DNA of 64,000 nt, from NCBI GenBank assembly GCA_005843835.1, contig SZXZ01000087.1:1-64000 (forward strand). The letters run 5' to 3'. The stretch is from Chlorobium sp. GTDB lineage: Bacteria > Bacteroidota > Chlorobiia > Chlorobiales > Chlorobiaceae. The notes under the pieces are model-generated. The model was not told where the DNA came from, searched no databases, and was given only the letters and a program-made list of their open reading frames with translations. How positions within the stretch are numbered: the stretch's first letter is position 1; the number at the start of each line of letters is the position of its first letter. Positions 13,268 through 25,789 of the stretch are shown one piece after another. Made by a program: the position numbers and the translations under genes.

Positions 13268-13519
13268 ATAACCTTTTTTTATTATCAAAACATTAAAATA
13301 ACAAAGGATACTGTCGCTGTTGCAGGGCGGCAGGCTTTAGATGTAAAAAGCGAAATCTAATTAAATTTAACAAAAATCGTTTTTTTTAATATCTTCTCAA
13401 TCGCCTCAATTTGATTTTCATGACTACAAGTGTAACTATTTTCCAACTCAATCGTAGTTATCACATCAGTGCTCTGCACGTTCCAAATTTATCAATACAA
13501 ATCAAGAGAGACTGCCAGT

Positions 13520-16500
13520 ATGACCAGGACTTATAAAACAATGGAGGGAAATGAAGCTTTAGCTCATGTCTCTTACCGCACCAGTGAAGTTATATGTATC
13601 TACCCAATTACTCCGGCATCGCCGATGGGTGAATATTCTGATGCATGGGCAGCTGAAGGAAAAAAGAATATTTGGGGAACTGTCCCTAAAATTGATGAAT
13701 TACAGAGCGAAGCTGGCGCTGCTGCTGCAGTCCACGGCGCATTGCAGACTGGTGCGTTGACCACCACGTTTACAGCATCACAGGGATTGCTGCTAATGAT
13801 TCCTAATATGTATAAAATTGCCGGGGAGCTGACACCTTGCGTCATACATGTTTCAGCACGTGCTCTTGCAGGCCAGGCACTTTCAATTTTCGGGGATCAT
13901 GGTGATGTCATGTCTGTTCGTGGAACAGGATTTGCCCTTCTTGCATCAGCTTCTGTTCAGGAAGTTATGGATCTTGGTCTAATTTCCGCTGCAGCAACAC
14001 TTGAGTCCAGAGTACCATTCCTTCACTTTTTTGACGGCTTTAGAACATCTCATGAGATTGCAAAAATAGAGGTTATTTCTGATGATATCATAAAGGCAAT
14101 GATCAGCGAGGAGCTTGTTATAGCGCACCGCAACAGACGCATGAGCCCTGACGCTCCCATTCTTAGAGGAACATCTCAGAATCCTGATGTCTATTTTCAA
14201 GGCAGGGAAACCGTCAACAGCTATTACAACGAATGCCCCGCAATCACTCAAAGATTGATGGACAAATTCGGTGACCTGACGGGACGTTACTATAAGCTTT
14301 ACCAATACTATGGCGCACCTGATGCTGAGCGGGTTATAGTGCTGATGGGCTCCGGTGTTGAGACTGCTCGTGAAACTGCTGATTATCTCAACAGCAAGGG
14401 CGAAAAAGTCGGCGTCCTCCATGCCCGTATGTTCCGCCCGTTCGATATTGAGCTTTTAGTTAATGCGTTACCATCAACAGTCAAATCAGTTTCTGTTCTT
14501 GATAGAATCAAGGAACCCGGAAGTGCCGGTGAACCGCTCTATCTCGACGTTGTCAATGCGCTGCTTGAAGGGGTACAGAATGGGTTACTGAAAACCCTTC
14601 CAAATATTACCGGCGGCAGATATGGCCTTTCTTCAAAGGAATTTACTCCAGCGATGGTAAAGTCTGTTTTCGACAATATGGCTCTTCCTAAACCTAAGAA
14701 TCATTTCACTGTCGGCATCAAAGACGATGTAACATTCACAAGTCTTGACTACGACCATAACTTTACCATAGAACCTGATGAAATGTTCCGGGCTCTTTTT
14801 TACGGACTTGGTTCGGACGGCACCGTCGGTGCAAATAAAAACAGCATCAAAATTATCGGTGAAAAGACATCAAACTTTGCACAGGGTTATTTTGTCTACG
14901 ACTCGAAAAAAGCCGGTTCAATCACAACTTCTCACCTGCGCTTTGGCCCGAATGAGATTCACTCAACCTATCTGATTACTCAAGCACAGTTTATCGGATG
15001 CCACCACTGGATTTTTCTTGAGATGATTGATCTTCTGAAAAATCTCAAGAAAGAAGGCACCCTCCTTTTAAACTCACCATATGCCGCTGATGAACTTTGG
15101 GACAAACTTCCAAAAGTCGTTCAGGAGCATCTGATTAAGAAAGAGGCAAAACTGTATACTATTGATGCTTATAAAGTCGCTCACTCAAGCGGTATGGGCC
15201 AACGCATCAACACCATTATGCAGGCATGCTTTTTTGCCATATCGGGTGTACTGCCCCGTGAAGAGGCAATCGACCAGATCAAGAACTCTATAAGGGAAAC
15301 TTATGGCAAAAAAGGAGATGAAGTTGTCAACCAGAATATTCAGGCTGTAGATGAAACACTCTCGAACCTGCATCAGGTAACTTTAGGTTCGATAGCTGAC
15401 AGCAAGAAAGAACTGCGCCCGCCTATTGTTGGTGAAGCATCTGATTTTGTCTGCAATGTGCTGGCAAAAATAATTGCAGGTGAAGGTGATGATATTCCGG
15501 TTAGCGATATGCCTGCTGACGGCACTTATCCAACTGGTACATCAAAATTTGAAAAACGTAATCTGGCTGATGAAATCCCTGTGTGGGAACCGGATTTATG
15601 CATACAGTGTGCTAAATGCTCCATGGTCTGCCCTCATGCTGTTATCCGTGCCAAGGTCTATGACGCCAAATACCTTGCCAACGCACCGCGTACTTTTAAA
15701 TCTACCGAAGCCAAAGGGACCAGTTGGGAGGGAATGAAGTATACCATTCAGGTTGCACCTGAAGACTGTACAGGTTGTGAAATTTGTGCACATGTCTGCC
15801 CTGGAAGGGATAAAACAAACCCATCAAGAAAAGCATTGAACATGAAGCCTCAGCAACCGCTTCGTGAAACAGAAGTTGACAACTGGAACTATTACCTTAA
15901 TATTCCTGAATTTGACCGTAGCAAAATCAATACAAAGCTGATCAAGGAACAGCAGCTTCAGGTACCTCTCTTCGAGTTTTCAGGAGCTTGCTCCGGCTGT
16001 GGTGAAACACCTTATGTCAAGCTGATGACGCAGCTGTTTGGTGACCGCCTTGTTGTTGGCAATGCTACCGGTTGTTCATCAATCTATGGCGGGAACCTGC
16101 CAACGACCCCTTACACCACTAATGCTGAAGGTCGTGGACCAACGTGGTCAAACTCACTTTTTGAAGATACGGCAGAATTTGCCCTTGGCTTTAGGATTTC
16201 TATTGATAAACAGCGCGAATACGCCCAGGAACTTTTAAAAAGACTCTCTGCTGAAATTGGAGAAACGCTGACAAAAGAAATTCTTGAAGCACGTGAGATT
16301 GTTGAGCCGGATATTTTTGAGCAGAGAAAACGTGTCGCTATTCTGAAGGAGAAGCTTCATCTCATTGATTCTTCCGATGCGAGGAATCTGCTTTCTGTGG
16401 CAGATATGCTTGTTAAAAAAAGTGTCTGGGGAGTTGGTGGTGATGGCTGGGCTTACGACATCGGTTACGGAGGCGTTGATCACATTACTGCAGGCAACAA

Positions 16501-17080
16501 AAATGTCAACCTTCTTGTGCTGGATACTGAAGTTTATTCCAATACTGGAGGACAGGCGTCCAAGGCAACTCCGAAAGCCGCAGTGGCAAAATTTGCCGCA
16601 GCGGGACGAACAGCCACTAAAAAGGATCTTGGTATGATCTCCATGTCATACGGAACAGCCTATGTTGCATCGGTTGCTCTAGGTGCCCGTGATGAGCACA
16701 CCCTGAAAGCTTTCCTGGAAGCAGAAGCTTATAATGGACCATCCATCATTTTAGCTTATTCTCACTGTATCGCACATGGCATCAACATGTCTACGGCTCT
16801 TGAGAATCAGAAAGCAGCAGTTGATTCAGGACACTGGATTCTCTATCGCTACAATCCTGAGAGATTGCTTGAAGGAAAGAATCCACTTATTCTTGATTCG
16901 AAAAAGCCTAAAATACCTGTTGCAAATTTCCTTAATATGGAAAACCGTTTCAGAATGCTCAAAAAGAGCCATCCTGCCTTGGCTGACGAGTACTATACGG
17001 CGATCCAGAAAGAAGTTGATGCACGTTGGTCTCATTACGAATATCTTGCAGCACGAACCAATTTCGATAATGCTCAATAA
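13520..17080 (+). CDS. nifJ: pyruvate:ferredoxin (flavodoxin) oxidoreductase, single-chain
   Basis: ICIYPITPASPMGEYSD, two 4Fe-4S motifs (CIQCAKCSMVCPH; CTGCEICAHVCPG), TPP domain GGDGWAYDIGYGGVDH. ATG at 13520. Confidence 0.97.
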   Translation: MTRTYKTMEGNEALAHVSYRTSEVICIYPITPASPMGEYSDAWAAEGKKNIWGTVPKIDELQSEAGAAAAVHGALQTGALTTTFTASQGLLLMIPNMYKIAGELTPCVIHVSARALAGQALSIFGDHGDVMSVRGTGFALLASASVQEVMDLGLISAAATLESRVPFLHFFDGFRTSHEIAKIEVISDDIIKAMISEELVIAHRNRRMSPDAPILRGTSQNPDVYFQGRETVNSYYNECPAITQRLMDKFGDLTGRYYKLYQYYGAPDAERVIVLMGSGVETARETADYLNSKGEKVGVLHARMFRPFDIELLVNALPSTVKSVSVLDRIKEPGSAGEPLYLDVVNALLEGVQNGLLKTLPNITGGRYGLSSKEFTPAMVKSVFDNMALPKPKNHFTVGIKDDVTFTSLDYDHNFTIEPDEMFRALFYGLGSDGTVGANKNSIKIIGEKTSNFAQGYFVYDSKKAGSITTSHLRFGPNEIHSTYLITQAQFIGCHHWIFLEMIDLLKNLKKEGTLLLNSPYAADELWDKLPKVVQEHLIKKEAKLYTIDAYKVAHSSGMGQRINTIMQACFFAISGVLPREEAIDQIKNSIRETYGKKGDEVVNQNIQAVDETLSNLHQVTLGSIADSKKELRPPIVGEASDFVCNVLAKIIAGEGDDIPVSDMPADGTYPTGTSKFEKRNLADEIPVWEPDLCIQCAKCSMVCPHAVIRAKVYDAKYLANAPRTFKSTEAKGTSWEGMKYTIQVAPEDCTGCEICAHVCPGRDKTNPSRKALNMKPQQPLRETEVDNWNYYLNIPEFDRSKINTKLIKEQQLQVPLFEFSGACSGCGETPYVKLMTQLFGDRLVVGNATGCSSIYGGNLPTTPYTTNAEGRGPTWSNSLFEDTAEFALGFRISIDKQREYAQELLKRLSAEIGETLTKEILEAREIVEPDIFEQRKRVAILKEKLHLIDSSDARNLLSVADMLVKKSVWGVGGDGWAYDIGYGGVDHITAGNKNVNLLVLDTEVYSNTGGQASKATPKAAVAKFAAAGRTATKKDLGMISMSYGTAYVASVALGARDEHTLKAFLEAEAYNGPSIILAYSHCIAHGINMSTALENQKAAVDSGHWILYRYNPERLLEGKNPLILDSKKPKIPVANFLNMENRFRMLKKSHPALADEYYTAIQKEVDARWSHYEYLAARTNFDNAQ

Positions 17081-17104
17081 GCAATAAGAAGTATCATTGA
17101 ATCA

Positions 17105-17136
17105 AAAAACGGTGGAATCTAACATCCACCGTTTTT
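17105..17136 (+). terminator. intrinsic terminator after PFOR gene
   Basis: AAAAACGGTGGA-loop-TCCACCGTTTTTTT. Confidence 0.85.
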
Positions 17137-17275
17137 TTGTTTTCCTTCACTCTATGTTTATCTCATTTCCTATTTAACATTATGCTATCTCAAAAGTGAG
17201 TTTTGAGCGATAGCTCTCTTCTTCATCCCCGCAATATTGTCCCATAACTTTATACCGATTTCACCCCGATCTTAC

Positions 17276-17290
17276 GTCTCTATATGAGAC
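17276..17290. promoter_or_regulatory. inverted repeat GTCTC-N5-GAGAC, candidate upstream activator site
   Basis: Perfect 5-bp arms about 100 bp upstream of the sigma-54-like -24 element. Confidence 0.35.
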
Positions 17291-17391
17291 ACTTTTTCTG
17301 TCACAAGTATACCAAATACTAAGATCCTCTTATCTACAACAAAACTATATTTTATTATATTTCAATACGTTATCCAAATAGATAAAAATAT

Positions 17392-17407
17392 TGGCACTTT
17401 AATTGCA
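17392..17407 (+). promoter_or_regulatory. sigma-54 (RpoN) -24/-12 promoter
   Basis: TGGCACTTTAATTGCA matches TGGCAC-N5-TTGCW with exact spacing, 57 bp before an ATG with a good SD. Confidence 0.75.
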
Positions 17408-17463
17408 AGTATAATCTTATAAAAGTAAAGTCATTGTAAAACAATAATCTAAAGAGGTGACTC

Positions 17464-17652
17464 ATGAAAAGCATAACAAAACAAGGTGATGTGTTGCGGT
17501 CTGAGTCATATGCAGATATTCAAATCTCTCTAACACTTCCAAGATTTTATGATGTTGTGAAAAAAGAACGTCTTAGTTCTGCCATGTATTACGCCAAAAT
17601 GGCAATTGCTCTTGCAATTGTGACCCCCTCCCAGAAAACTGGACACATGTAA
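17464..17652 (+). pseudogene. 5' fragment of a small unidentified gene, interrupted by an IS3-family element
   Basis: ATG preceded by AAAGAGGTGACTC; coding MKSITKQGDVLRSESYADIQISLTLPRFYDVVKKERLSSAMYYAKMAIALAIV, then runs into the IS left end (17621) and stops inside it. Confidence 0.65.
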
Positions 17653-18832
17653 AGTAGAGATTTCCGGCAATGAGTATCTTGAAACAAACCAGGAGCCATT
17701 GCCATGAAAACATCACGATTCAGCGAACAACAGATCAGCTATGCCCTCAGACAATCTGAAGCGGGAACCAAAGTCCGGGATATTTGCCGGCAACTTGGAA
17801 TCTCACAAGCCACCTTATATGGTTGGAAAAACAAATTCGGAGGTATGGGTGTCAACGAGCTTCGACGGCTCCGTCAGTTGGAACAGGAAAATGCCCATCT
17901 CAAGAAGCTTGTTGCCGATTTGAGCCTTGATCGGCAGATGCTTCAGGATGTGATAAAAAAAAGTTGTAAGGCCTGCCGTAAAGATGCATCTGGTGCAATA
18001 CATGACGGTGGCTTACCATGTTTCGGTCAAGCGGGCTTGCCGAACGCTACCGACACCTCCATCGACGCTTTACTACAAGGCTCATAAGCGCGATGAGACG
18101 TTGTTGGCAATGCGGATGCGAGAGATTGCATACTCTCGAGTCCGTTACGGATTTCGACGCATCGAAATCATGCTTAGGCGCGAAGGTTTTACCGATAACC
18201 ACAAGCGCAGGCGTCGGATTTATCGCGAACAAGGTTTGGTTTTGCGGCCGAAGCGGCCACTAAGGAATCGTAGCGCAAAGCACCGCATTGAGAAAATCGA
18301 AGCGCTGCGAGTACATCAAGTATGGAGCATGGACTTCGTAGCCGATCAACTCTTTGATGGCCGGAAATTCAGAGTCTTGACGATCGTTGACAACTTTGGA
18401 AAGAAATGCTCTGGCCTGTTCGCAAGCCAACATATTAAAGGATCAGACGTTGTCGGCTACCTCGAAACTGCTGTGCAACGTGAAGGAGCTATGCCGGAAC
18501 GCATACAAGTCGACAATGGAAGCGAGTTCATTTCCAAAGAACTGGATCGCTGGGCTTATGAGAATAAAGTCGTGTTGGATTTCTCCCGACCGGGCAAGCC
18601 GACCGATAATCCTTATATTGAATCATTCAACGGTAAGTTTCGTGATGAGTGCCTTTCGGTTCATTGGTTCAGCAGTCTCGAAGATGTGCGAACCAAGATC
18701 GAGGAGTGGCGAAGCGAATATAACGGCTTCAGACCTCATTATTCCTTGAGAGGTCTAGCTCCCATTGAATTTATTGCATTAAAAGAAAATAGGCCGGAAT
18801 TTCTACTTTTGAGGTGTCCGATTAAGGGGCCA
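17621..18832 (+). mobile_element. IS3-family insertion sequence (IS407-like group)
   Basis: orfA/orfB pair flanked by imperfect terminal inverted repeats: left TGACCCCC...CTGGACACATGTAAAGTAGAGATTTCCGGC; reverse complement of right TGGCCCCTTAATCGGACACCTCAAAAGTAGAAATTCCGGC. Confidence 0.85.
17704..18087 (+). CDS. IS3-family transposase OrfA (HTH_Tnp_1)
   Basis: MKTSRFSEQQISYALRQSEAGTKVRDICRQLGISQATLYGWKNKFGG...LRQLEQENAHLKKLVADLSLDRQMLQDVIKK. Confidence 0.93.
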   Translation: MKTSRFSEQQISYALRQSEAGTKVRDICRQLGISQATLYGWKNKFGGMGVNELRRLRQLEQENAHLKKLVADLSLDRQMLQDVIKKSCKACRKDASGAIHDGGLPCFGQAGLPNATDTSIDALLQGS

Positions 18833-18874
18833 TACGCAAACTGGTTTAAGCATCTTTTTTTTGTTGCACAATAA
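17984..18874 (+). CDS. IS3-family transposase OrfB (rve integrase domain)
   Basis: VWSMDFVADQL, RIQVDNGSEFISKE, NPYIESFNGKFRDECL (DDE); the frame stays open through the right IR and stops about 40 nt outside it. Confidence 0.93.
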   Translation: MHLVQYMTVAYHVSVKRACRTLPTPPSTLYYKAHKRDETLLAMRMREIAYSRVRYGFRRIEIMLRREGFTDNHKRRRRIYREQGLVLRPKRPLRNRSAKHRIEKIEALRVHQVWSMDFVADQLFDGRKFRVLTIVDNFGKKCSGLFASQHIKGSDVVGYLETAVQREGAMPERIQVDNGSEFISKELDRWAYENKVVLDFSRPGKPTDNPYIESFNGKFRDECLSVHWFSSLEDVRTKIEEWRSEYNGFRPHYSLRGLAPIEFIALKENRPEFLLLRCPIKGPYANWFKHLFFVAQ

Positions 18875-19250
18875 TTTGGGCATATCCTTCTAAATCGTAT
18901 AACCGCTTTTTGTAAAACTTCTTAAATCTGCTCTATAAAAGTAAATTGCTGTGCATCAATTGGTAACATTAATTCAAGTCAGGCAAAAACTTTTACAGGG
19001 TCTGGCTATAGTGCAAGCGATTTAGTTTTCTTTCGCATCATCCTCGTTACGTTGACTTTACGCTTTGGCAGTCTCATTTCCAACACGTAACAATTTTTTC
19101 TCATACCGTTATATTTGAAATGTCTTAGCTTTATTTCTTAAAACAATAATTGATACACTGCGACCCGTGTGCTCTCCTTGTTTTTTTTACCCCTGCAATA
19201 TAATGTTGATTTTTAACGACTTAGTACAGAATAGTATAACAACGTATAGA

Positions 19251-20978
19251 TTACTTCTTCAAAAGCTTCTTGATTTTCTCTTTCATCTCCTGTGACTTTT
19301 GACTGTTACCGATTGCATCGTAGACCTGGCTGAGATGATCCATTATTTCAGTTTCAGTGGTATCTATTCCCAATGCTTTTTCAAGAATATCACGCGCTTT
19401 CTCATACTCTTTTAACTTGAACAAAACCCAACCCAGGGTGTCCAGATAACTTGCATTATCGGGTTCAGCAGTCACAGCTTTTAAGGCAAGATCTTTAGCT
19501 CTAATAAGTTCTTTTTCCTGTACAGAAAGAACATAGGCCAGATTGTTCATCATGAGATAATTTTTAGAGTCGGTTTGCAGAATCGTTTCGTAAAGATGAA
19601 TGCTTTTATCGGGAAAACCCAGTTTATCATAACATAAAGCAAGACTGGTTACAGCTTGCTCATAAAGCTGTTTGTCCTTTTTTGCAGTTTTCGGCCTCGC
19701 GACTGGCTCAAGAAGTAATACTGCCTGCTTTAGATTTCCCGCCTGAAATTGCACCTCGCCTTCTAATACCCTGAGCCTGAACATCAAACTTGGAAATCGA
19801 CTTTTTGCCTTAGAAACTGTTCTCTCTGCATGCAAATAATCCTTTTGCATAAGATATGCCGAAACAAGATTCTCCCACATTTCAACATTTTTCGGTTCAA
19901 GCTGAAGTGCTTTTTTAAAATCAGGTATTGCGTCAAGCCCTTTACCATGCAATATTTTTGCATTGCCTCGGAGGACATAGACCAAACTGTTGTTCTTATT
20001 TCGCCTGCCGATTTCATCTATCATGGTTATTGATGGTTGAACAAAAGAACTGTCGCGTACAGAACGCACAACAAACAGTTTTGCAAGTTCTATTTTCTGT
20101 TTGAAGCTTATCTGACTGGTATTGTTAAGGCGATTAAGATATTCTAGAAAAACAGATTGATTCTTTGACTGAACAGAAACCTCAAACACTCCAAGCCATG
20201 CAGGAATAAATCTTGGATTTTCATGCACTACCTCCCTGAATGTTTTGAATGCAAGATCGAAATCCCCGGCTTGTATATAAAGCTCCCCGAGAGTTAAACG
20301 AAGCTTGTCTTTTTCGTCTCCCTGTCGAATCAGCTCCATCACCCTCTTTATTGCATCCTTATAGTGAAGAAGTTTTATTTCCATGAGCAAGACCTGAGCC
20401 TGCGCTGTCTTGTCTTTAGGGTCAATTGAAAGGATGTCTTTAAATACAGCAAGAGCTTTTTCAGGCTGATCAGCCGCAAGATATTCGAGTGCAAGTGATG
20501 ATAAAGGTTCCACACTGCCAGGTTCAAGAGCAACAATCTGCCGATAAAGATCGCTCGCCCGAGTATAATCATGCATTTGATGTGCTAAACCAGCAAGAAC
20601 ACTCAAATAATATTTATTTCCTGGATTAAGCAGGACACTTTTTTCGCTGTATATACGGGCGGAATCGAGAACACCAAGACTTAGATATGCTTTGGAGAGG
20701 GCATAATGAATCGCAGCGTTTGAGGGCTCAACGGTAAGAAGTTTCAGATAACGATTGGCCGCACTGCGATAATTTCCCTGAGCGCTGAGAAGCGATGCTG
20801 CAACAAATTCCCGGGTAGATGCCTGGGCAAGGGAATCAGATTGCGAACTGCCAGAAAGTGCAGGACGGGATGAACAGGAAGAAAGGAGAATACAACAGGA
20901 AATTGCACAGAAAAGTGCATAAAAATAAATAATCAGCCGATACCGGTTTGCTGATAATTTACCGGTCTTCCTGAACAT
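19251..20978 (-). CDS. TPR-repeat lipoprotein
   Basis: Lipobox FCAISCCILLSSCSS, many tetratricopeptide repeats. Likely start 20978 (ORF extends to 21044). Confidence 0.88.
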   Translation of the reverse strand: MFRKTGKLSANRYRLIIYFYALFCAISCCILLSSCSSRPALSGSSQSDSLAQASTREFVAASLLSAQGNYRSAANRYLKLLTVEPSNAAIHYALSKAYLSLGVLDSARIYSEKSVLLNPGNKYYLSVLAGLAHQMHDYTRASDLYRQIVALEPGSVEPLSSLALEYLAADQPEKALAVFKDILSIDPKDKTAQAQVLLMEIKLLHYKDAIKRVMELIRQGDEKDKLRLTLGELYIQAGDFDLAFKTFREVVHENPRFIPAWLGVFEVSVQSKNQSVFLEYLNRLNNTSQISFKQKIELAKLFVVRSVRDSSFVQPSITMIDEIGRRNKNNSLVYVLRGNAKILHGKGLDAIPDFKKALQLEPKNVEMWENLVSAYLMQKDYLHAERTVSKAKSRFPSLMFRLRVLEGEVQFQAGNLKQAVLLLEPVARPKTAKKDKQLYEQAVTSLALCYDKLGFPDKSIHLYETILQTDSKNYLMMNNLAYVLSVQEKELIRAKDLALKAVTAEPDNASYLDTLGWVLFKLKEYEKARDILEKALGIDTTETEIMDHLSQVYDAIGNSQKSQEMKEKIKKLLKK

Positions 20979-22998: not shown

Positions 22999-24801
22999 CT
23001 ATTGAGTAACATTTGCTGAAGGCCGCAACCTCCAATCATCAATATTGTAAAAAGTCCCTGAAATATTGAGATCCTCCCCCTCAATCCTTTTGCTGAATCC
23101 CTGCGTTTCCCTGATCCAGTAAAGAAAAGTGATCGGCTGATCCCTATGCAGTATTTCCTGATATTCAAGCCAGTATGGTTTAGCTCCGACTGGGTCCATT
23201 TTCAACTTGGCAAGCTCGCAAAGTTCGTCAATCCTTGGATTGCGGTAACCCGTAAAATTAAATCTGCTTTTTTTGAGATCAGAACCCCAAACATCCAGAG
23301 GATCGATTTCCAGACCTATAGACCAGCCTGCCATCCATGCATCAAGTTTTCGAGACTGAAGGTTCTCAAAAAAAACATTGGATTCCTGAACATCCAGCTT
23401 GCACTCAATGCCGATAGCTCGAAGGTTTTGTTGAATAATAACGCTCGCATAGTTTCTTCGCGCATTCCCCGAATTTGTATAGAGGGTAAAACTGAACCTC
23501 TTGCCGTTTTTTTGGAGAATACCGTCGGGACCTGGAAACCATCCATCGGCTTTAAGCAGGTTTGAAGCTTTTGCCGAATCGTAAGGATGTGGAACCATCC
23601 GGTTATTATACGCCCACTTGAGAGATGGAGATATATCGGTATTGCAAATCACACCATACTGTTTGAGATATCCGTCAATGATGGCTTCACGATCAATGGC
23701 ATGAGTAAGTGCAAGGCGGACTTGCGCTGAACCGAACAATGGGTGCGGCTTGAATTTACCGGTTCTCTGGTACTCTGCCTGATCAATATTTGACCAGCCA
23801 ACATAATCGTATACTCTCAGACCAACTGTTTTAATTTCAAGCTGATTATTTGCCTTTAAAAGAGCTGTGAAATCCTCAGGTTTAATGTTTTCGACAACAT
23901 CAACAGCACTTGTCTGAAGCTGCGTGAGCCTTACAGTATAATCAGGGACTACCTTAAAGGAAATAACGGAAATATTGCCGGGCTTAGGAAGATTGGATTT
24001 CCGGTTTGAAGCCAAAACTATTTCCTGCTGCTGCTGCCAGTTTCTCAGTTTGTAGGGTCCTGCACCGAGCGGATCAAGATTTAGCGGGGAATGACGAAAC
24101 TCGTCAGGTTTAACACCTTTCCACCTGTGAGCAGGAAGAGGGGTAAGCGAGGTATGAAAAAGAGCCAGATGTTCAGGAACCGGCTTGTAAAACCTGAAGA
24201 CAAGGGTTGTATCATCTGGCGTCTCTATTGCTTTATCGAAATCAACCCGACCCTTATCGGCACCAACCAATTCAGCAAGATACTGTTGCCGGGCACTTGC
24301 AATAACAGGATTCCCGTACAATTGGTAGGAAAACTTGAAGTCTGCTGATATAATTGGCTTACCGTCATCCCAGAATGCATCATGACGAAGAATGTAAGTA
24401 ATGGATTTATTATCGTCCGACATATGCCAGGTTCTGGCGAGAGCGGCTTTCGGAGTTTTTTTCCCCTGTCCAGATTGCAGTACCCTCAGTTTTTTTTCGA
24501 GGGCCATGTAATTCATGAGACCGGTGGTTGTATCAAACTCACTCTGCAGTAAGGAGGGATAAATAAGGCCGAATATATTGCTTGATGTTACGGTAGTACC
24601 GATAACCGGATTAAGATAATCTGCATCGCCAAGCATGGCAATAACAAGCGTGGAATCCATAGCTGATTGTCCTTTACCTGTCTTTGCCTTACTTGCATCA
24701 TGCTTACTACAGGAAGAAAGGACTACAATAATAAAAACAGCTATAAAGAACCCCGTTAATCGATATGCTGCAGCAAACCTGCAGGCACCTTTTTCAATCA
24801 T
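22999..24801 (-). CDS. ABC transporter substrate-binding protein, family 5 (lipoprotein)
   Basis: Lipobox VVLSSCSKHD; SBP_bac_5 features (WHMSDDNKSITYILRHDAFWDDGKPI, ALTHAIDREAIIDG). Confidence 0.9.
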   Translation of the reverse strand: MIEKGACRFAAAYRLTGFFIAVFIIVVLSSCSKHDASKAKTGKGQSAMDSTLVIAMLGDADYLNPVIGTTVTSSNIFGLIYPSLLQSEFDTTTGLMNYMALEKKLRVLQSGQGKKTPKAALARTWHMSDDNKSITYILRHDAFWDDGKPIISADFKFSYQLYGNPVIASARQQYLAELVGADKGRVDFDKAIETPDDTTLVFRFYKPVPEHLALFHTSLTPLPAHRWKGVKPDEFRHSPLNLDPLGAGPYKLRNWQQQQEIVLASNRKSNLPKPGNISVISFKVVPDYTVRLTQLQTSAVDVVENIKPEDFTALLKANNQLEIKTVGLRVYDYVGWSNIDQAEYQRTGKFKPHPLFGSAQVRLALTHAIDREAIIDGYLKQYGVICNTDISPSLKWAYNNRMVPHPYDSAKASNLLKADGWFPGPDGILQKNGKRFSFTLYTNSGNARRNYASVIIQQNLRAIGIECKLDVQESNVFFENLQSRKLDAWMAGWSIGLEIDPLDVWGSDLKKSRFNFTGYRNPRIDELCELAKLKMDPVGAKPYWLEYQEILHRDQPITFLYWIRETQGFSKRIEGEDLNISGTFYNIDDWRLRPSANVTQ

Positions 24802-25789
24802 TACTTTCTTCCTCTGTTTTACCACTGTTGATAACATTTTTGATTCGATCAGTCAGAGCTTCGGCTGCAACGTAATTGGAGTATCGTTTCAATAGAAAAT
24901 TAAGTGCAACCACCTCAATAATAACGGTAATATTTTTACCGGGGAATATAGGTAATTGTACAAGCGGAACTTCAACACCAAGAATCTTAATAAATTTGGT
25001 GTCTAACCCCAGCCGTTCATAGACCATTTCTTTATCCCATTCCAGCAGTTCCACAACAACCTGAACTTCCTTGACATCACGAATTGCACGGATACCAAAG
25101 TTTGCCCGTACATCAACTACACCAAGACCGCGAATTTCCATAAAATGGTCAATGATGTTATTTCTTTTGGCATTGAGCATCATTGATTCCCCTTTCCGAT
25201 GTATAACAACAACATCATCAGCCACAAGACCATGCCCCCTTTCAACCAGATCCAGCGCAATTTCTGACTTTCCAAGACCGCTTTTTCCGATAAGCAACAC
25301 CCCGACGCCATATACGTCAACCATTGAGCCGTGGTATTGCTGATAAAACGAAAACTGATCATCAAGAAAACCAGTAACAAAGTAAATGGTTTTGGTAGAA
25401 GAAAGGCGAGTAATAAATACAGGAATACCTGCATTGGTAGCCATATCGAGAAGAGACTGAGGGAGTTTATTACTGCTTGTCAGTATTATGCAAGGTATTT
25501 TAAATCGCACAAGATTTTCAAACACCCGATTTCTTTCTTGTTCTTCGAGATGATTTAGAAACCTTGTTTCTGTATTTCCAAGAATCTGTACTCGTTTGTA
25601 AGTAAAAAGATTTGTAAACCCGGCAAGGGCAAGTCCGGGCCGATGAAGATCACGTTCAAATATTCTCCGTTTCTGTTCGTCAACATTATTCAGACGCCGT
25701 AATTTGATATCGTGCATTTTGCCGATAGTATTAAAAAAATAGGCGACCGTAATTGATCGCTTCTTTAATCCCTTTTGGTCAAGGTTCAT
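24794..25789 (-). CDS. hprK: HPr kinase/phosphorylase
   Basis: GVLLIGKSGLGKSEIALDLVERGHGLVADDVV, MEIRGLGVVDVRANFGIRAI. Confidence 0.96.
   Translation of the reverse strand: MNLDQKGLKKRSITVAYFFNTIGKMHDIKLRRLNNVDEQKRRIFERDLHRPGLALAGFTNLFTYKRVQILGNTETRFLNHLEEQERNRVFENLVRFKIPCIILTSSNKLPQSLLDMATNAGIPVFITRLSSTKTIYFVTGFLDDQFSFYQQYHGSMVDVYGVGVLLIGKSGLGKSEIALDLVERGHGLVADDVVVIHRKGESMMLNAKRNNIIDHFMEIRGLGVVDVRANFGIRAIRDVKEVQVVVELLEWDKEMVYERLGLDTKFIKILGVEVPLVQLPIFPGKNITVIIEVVALNFLLKRYSNYVAAEALTDRIKNVINSGKTEEESND

Follow-up and report, generated by a model that had tools for sequence, protein, structure and literature searches.

The question raised by this locus is to which regulon a small gene, cut short by an insertion sequence and preceded by an apparent sigma-54 promoter, once belonged, and whether the inverted repeat further upstream marks the site of an activator. 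The locus lies on contig C78 of a Chlorobium sp. assembly (2.09 Mb, 140 contigs, about 89% complete); the stretch of 64 kb analysed here is referred to as the window, and comparisons were made within a genus collection of 65 genomes. We propose, with moderate confidence, that positions 17138-17620 hold an intact sigma-54 promoter region and a lineage-specific gene, cut by the insertion sequence (IS), that would have belonged to a sub-regulon of cell-exterior genes marked by the heptamer TGAGACA.

The predicted sigma-54 promoter

The -24/-12 element TGGCACTTTAATTGCA (17392-17407, plus strand), already pointed out in the first-pass annotation, matched the consensus TGGCAY-N5-TTGCW with GG-N10-GC spacing and was unique in the region. 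In the pattern scan it was the sole 0-mismatch match to TGGCACNNNNNTTGCW within the 64-kb window. The sequence TGGCGTCTCTATTGCT, at 24217-24232, sits within a coding gene (22999-24837, minus strand) and is probably a chance match.

The genome also possessed the machinery that this annotation had proposed to look for, namely rpoN and seven activators matching Sigma54_activat at >200 bits, all with GAFTGA or GSFTGA. A genome-wide motif scan, which had been suggested as a check, returned 7 copies of TGGCAYNNNNNTTGCW compared to 0 in the reversed control. The genes behind sites of this type included an hsp20-like gene, nifH and a tolC-like gene (L005, L008 and L011, on contigs C10, C70 and C131 of this genome, G000), the last adjoining a gene for an FhlA/NorR-like activator. 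The count of 7 against 0, the presence of rpoN and of activators, and targets of this kind together indicate that the exact-type sigma-54 class is real in this genome. The element at 17392-17407 has the best form of this class and a sensible spacing to the ribosome-binding site and start codon downstream, and is a predicted promoter. In a relative (G062), another sigma-54-type site, TGGCACACTTGTTGCA, precedes a gene for a 71-aa Flp-type pilin-like protein (L057).

The gene upstream, encoding pyruvate:ferredoxin oxidoreductase (PFOR; 13469-17080), ends in an intrinsic terminator with a 13-bp stem and a T tract (17104-17137, plus strand), which makes read-through into the promoter region less likely. 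The inverted repeat upstream of the promoter was also considered as the terminator of the PFOR gene, and this was rejected given the much stronger terminator at 17104-17137.

The interrupted gene and its lineage-specific segment

As previously described, an ATG at 17464 follows a good Shine-Dalgarno sequence (AAAGAGGTGACTC-ATG). The open reading frame (17464-17652, plus strand) runs for 52 native codons and one base up to the IS left end at 17621, continues for about 10 codons into the IS and closes there after 62 aa. With a codon model trained on 35 long open reading frames of the window, its score was highest in its own frame and was equalled in 1 of 2000 base shuffles, while the flanking regions scored negative or near zero in all frames. 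The claim of an unrecognised gene cut at about 52 codons is thus borne out, and on its codon signal the interrupted gene is a broken, putatively coding ORFan. A small-RNA reading of the locus was rejected, as no Rfam family was found in the window.

The 52-aa peptide had no match in Pfam, NCBIfam, PHROGs or PDB, and nothing above noise was obtained in 60 relatives, 395 genomes of the phylum, GTDB species contigs, viral contigs, phages or plasmids. The search of other Chlorobi proposed in the first-pass annotation therefore yielded no intact gene in the genus or in the 395 phylum genomes. The peptide likewise showed no convincing similarity to the N-termini of other proteins encoded behind TGAGACA sites (the best of six comparisons reached a score found in 4.5% of shuffles). 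The peptide ends in KMAIALAIV after a basic stretch, which resembles a hydrophobic segment broken off near its start, before its nature shows; an extended signal peptide and a first membrane helix would both fit, and so would export or a place in the membrane.

The interrupting element (17621-18839, plus strand) has imperfect inverted ends starting with TG, and its limits were set by comparison with copies in other genomes (G032, G008 and others). It encodes orfA (17704-18087, plus strand; HTH_Tnp_1, E=3.8e-22) and orfB (17984-18874, plus strand; rve integrase core, rve_3 E=8.5e-25), the frame of the latter extending beyond the IS end. The two transposase genes overlap in different frames, as in the IS3 family, and related copies occur in the genus. 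In contrast to the IS3 family, no target-site duplication was seen (flanks CAATTG and AACTGG, possibly through a later deletion), and the element is present as one copy in the assembly. The right flank (18840-19250, 33.6% GC) is AT-rich, non-coding and without a match in the genus or in plasmids. Continuation of the broken gene on this side was rejected, since no coding signal was detected there in any frame. As the target-site duplication is missing and the gene does not continue to the right, part of it was probably deleted. The IS3-family element would thus have cut the gene after 52 codons, and the remainder would no longer adjoin it.

The 3' end of the PFOR gene was compared in 29 relatives, in 21 of which the same convergent TPR gene stood directly behind it. 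The matched 3' end of the TPR gene lay 87-298 bp past the PFOR stop in these 21, and within 131 bp in 19 of them. Three of the other loci ended too early to tell and five had other genes. Across the genus, the junction between PFOR and the convergent TPR gene (17080-19251 in the window; L025-L053) varies in what it carries. In the window, 2170 bp separate the two genes, and this interval houses the promoter and the ORFan, then the IS and a non-coding AT-rich stretch of about 410 bp; the DNA to the left and right of the IS has a GC content of 32.6% and 33.6%, compared to 42.6% for the window. Apart from the IS, the segment had no match in any other genome of the genus. As the flanking genes stand about 100 bp apart in most relatives, the segment is read as a lineage-specific AT-rich insertion carrying a broken ORFan; the insertion at the variable junction came first and the IS3-family element struck later.

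The proposal that the strain has lost a conserved member of a regulon is consequently not supported, with no homologue in the relatives searched and no such segment in the orthologous gap. Of the three observations named beforehand as refuting, these two went against the gene, and the third, the presence of rpoN, leaves the promoter class standing.

The upstream repeat and the TGAGACA heptamer

The GTCTC-N5-GAGAC inverted repeat GTCTCTATATGAGAC noted in the first-pass annotation is exact, lies at 17276-17290 and is the sole exact copy in the 64-kb window. Chance should produce some 5+5 inverted repeat in any 300 bp of such AT-rich sequence, and this one gains its meaning only from its right arm, which belongs to a recurrent heptamer, TGAGACA (17285-17291, plus strand; 107 bp upstream of the -24 element). 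On this ground the earlier proposal of an activator site upstream of the promoter is likely, and the repeat is regarded as a candidate site for an enhancer-binding protein.

Exact TGAGACA was found at three of the ten sigma-54-type sites of this genome, at -107 (window), -118 (C51) and -158/-169 (C38). It was absent within 450 bp of the other seven, including those of nifH, hsp20 and tolC. The lead site is on contig C38, where TGAGACA-GTTA-TGAGACA lies 158-169 bp upstream of a sigma-54-type site whose open reading frame is cut by the contig end. This frame encodes the N-terminus of a protein with 660-aa relatives of the WbpM/CapD type (Polysacc_synt_2 in Pfam). Relatives of the gene in G068 and G078 possessed the same repeated half-site at 130-157 bp, and the three wbpM-type upstream regions share little except the TGAGACA repeat and the promoter. 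The C51 site, found by widening the own-genome scan to TGGCRY, precedes a gene for a secreted TPR protein related to one in G078.

A search of the genus for KGAGAC-N5-TGAGAC recovered additional copies that precede sigma-54-type promoters (TGGCRY-N5-TTGCW) of genes for a Sel1 protein (G068), a secreted TPR protein (G078) and TPS/ESPR proteins (G007, G015), and of an unassigned gene in G027. The TPS promoters and the G027 promoter also have a single TGTCTCA at -120 to -126. In related genomes, TGAGACA or TGTCTCA thus occurred about 118-171 bp upstream at relatives of the C38 and C51 genes and at Sel1 and TPS/ESPR (type V secretion) genes, and the Pfam families of the heptamer-linked genes were Polysacc_synt_2, TPR, Sel1, and TPS with ESPR. 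Overall, the heptamer recurs at comparable distances before about five independent genes, where its background frequency is about 0.01-0.016 per 160 bp. TGAGACA is not a general feature of these promoters, since it was found at -220 to -60 in only 4 of the 56 sigma-54-type sites of the genus sample. Moreover, the genus total of KGAGAC-N5-TGAGAC was about equal to that of the reversed control, so that the evidence for the association is positional and not numerical. A GTDB-wide scan for TGAGAC-N5-TGAGAC followed by a sigma-54 element after 122-152 nt gave six matches, one of them clear (a Chlorobiaceae record, at a wbpM-type gene); the other five look like chance or repeats. The paired form at this spacing is accordingly rare outside the genus.

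The window locus has its exact TGAGACA at -107, within the 100-170 bp ahead of the -24 element in which TGAGACA or TGTCTCA was looked for, and the probability of a heptamer within -190 to -60 by chance was 1.7% (shuffles). The site, ACGTCTCTATATGAGACAC, is laid out very similarly to the C51 site (TTGTCTTAAAATGAGACAG at -118), which is of a GTCT-N6-GAGAC type. It consists of one full TGAGACA half-site and an inverted GTCTC arm, where the test looked for paired half-sites, either direct with an 11-bp pitch or inverted. The direct-repeat form common to most other TGAGACA sites is absent here; the FHA-type and C51 sites likewise show one full half-site in the corresponding region. Membership of the locus in the sub-regulon is therefore argued from one heptamer (with the chance given above), its position and the inverted GTCTC arm.

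Readings of the locus and known sigma-54 systems

In sigma-54 biology, activators loop onto the waiting holoenzyme. At this locus, the sigma-54 holoenzyme would wait at 17392-17407. An activator of the NtrC family, bound to TGAGACA about 107 bp ahead of the -24 element, would loop to RNA polymerase-sigma54 and remodel the holoenzyme, with the transcript starting near 17418, about 12 bases past the -12 element. The TGAGACA sub-regulon of the genus would comprise a sugar-nucleotide enzyme of polysaccharide synthesis, secreted TPR and Sel1 proteins, and type V secreted proteins. As the site would belong to this cell-exterior sub-regulon, the product was probably a surface or matrix protein, either exported or set in the membrane. 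The chances are about even that green sulfur bacteria have an undescribed sigma-54 TGAGACA regulon for exopolysaccharide and secreted or adhesin-like proteins, with this locus as a lineage-specific member inactivated by an IS.

The main competing explanation keeps the promoter as a true sigma-54 promoter and takes the inverted repeat as a product of chance, the gene then belonging to another conditional regulon with an activator site that was not recognised. In its favour, AT-rich DNA often contains short inverted repeats, the heptamer stands alone with the chance given above, and most other sites have direct repeats where this one does not. However, the C51 site of this genome is a close match in distance (-118 against -107) and in the GTCT that precedes ATGAGACA, and among the ten sites the heptamer occurs only at C38, C51 and the window site; we regard this explanation as possible and rather unlikely. 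That neither promoter nor gene is real, the -24/-12 match and the open reading frame being accidents of an AT-rich insertion, would fit a lineage-specific segment of 32.6% GC with no homologue anywhere searched. This is highly improbable when the exact promoter consensus, the well-placed Shine-Dalgarno sequence and ATG, the heptamer and the in-frame codon signal (1 in 2000) are taken together.

The nitrogen link suggested in the first-pass annotation, in which NifA or NtrC would activate a member of the nif or another nitrogen regulon, appears highly improbable. The genome does encode a NifA-like activator, and its nifH has a sigma-54 promoter. Yet the region upstream of nifH lacks TGAGACA, inspection by eye showed no NifA site (TGT-N10-ACA) at the repeat, and the heptamer is shared with genes for polysaccharides and secreted proteins, not with nitrogen genes. 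The nif sigma-54 promoters of green sulfur bacteria, one of which stands at nifH here, have the same -24/-12 element and spacing as the window promoter; the nifH promoter of this genome differs from it in the upstream TGAGACA. A single sigma-54 survey that extends to Chlorobiia was found, and the genes it names are those of nitrogen fixation (PMC12316311).

The closest known parallel to the proposed TGAGACA sub-regulon is the PEP-CTERM/exosortase regulon of Proteobacteria (PrsK-PrsR). It too has single-gene units with long intergenic regions, a sigma-54 promoter preceded by a repeatable activator motif, and targets linked to exopolysaccharide and secreted matrix proteins. The proteobacterial motif 1 was found via TTTACA and averages 63 nt from the sigma-54 motif 2 (Haft et al. 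2006, PMC1569441), and pepA is RpoN-dependent (PMC9850573). In contrast, the half-site here is TGAGACA, it lies 107-171 bp from the -24 element, and the host is a green sulfur bacterium. An activator at the level of PrsR was not found in the assembly (about 89% complete), the best candidate scoring 422 bits against the TIGR02915 cut-off of 502.6. In another genome of the collection (L138, G033:C122), TGAGAC-N5-TGAGAC occurs ~300 bp upstream of a gene for a protein with a PEP-CTERM-like tail (VPEPSTYLLMGAGAVIAGIAARRK), with no exact sigma-54 match between the two.

Francke et al. 2011 (PMC3162934) likewise connect sigma-54 with exopolysaccharide and envelope genes, as a general theme of the bacterial exterior; their main text mentions neither Chlorobi nor TGAGAC. 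No description of a TGAGACA enhancer was found in the largely open-access literature searched, and surface regulation in green sulfur bacteria is little described. The transferable result is this short candidate enhancer word, which could predict sigma-54 genes of an exterior programme; the truncated gene is itself of little consequence.

Apart from protein-coding genes, the sigma-54 pattern was encountered at the Chlorobi-1 RNA (RF01696), found at L083-L086, L088, L095 and L097 (G062, G011, G025, G017, G072, G022, G064), with copies often in tandem, about 230-510 bp apart. The main text of the 2010 paper describing the Chlorobi-1 motif does not mention sigma-54. In a sample gathered via the sigma-54 pattern itself, TGGCAC-N5-TTG(C/T) lay 27-37 bases upstream of the modelled RNA start in 16 of 16 copies, each with a strong terminator stem after the element. 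This arrangement suggests that Chlorobi-1 may be a small RNA that depends on sigma-54 and is present in tandem copies, which recalls the Qrr RNAs of Vibrio.
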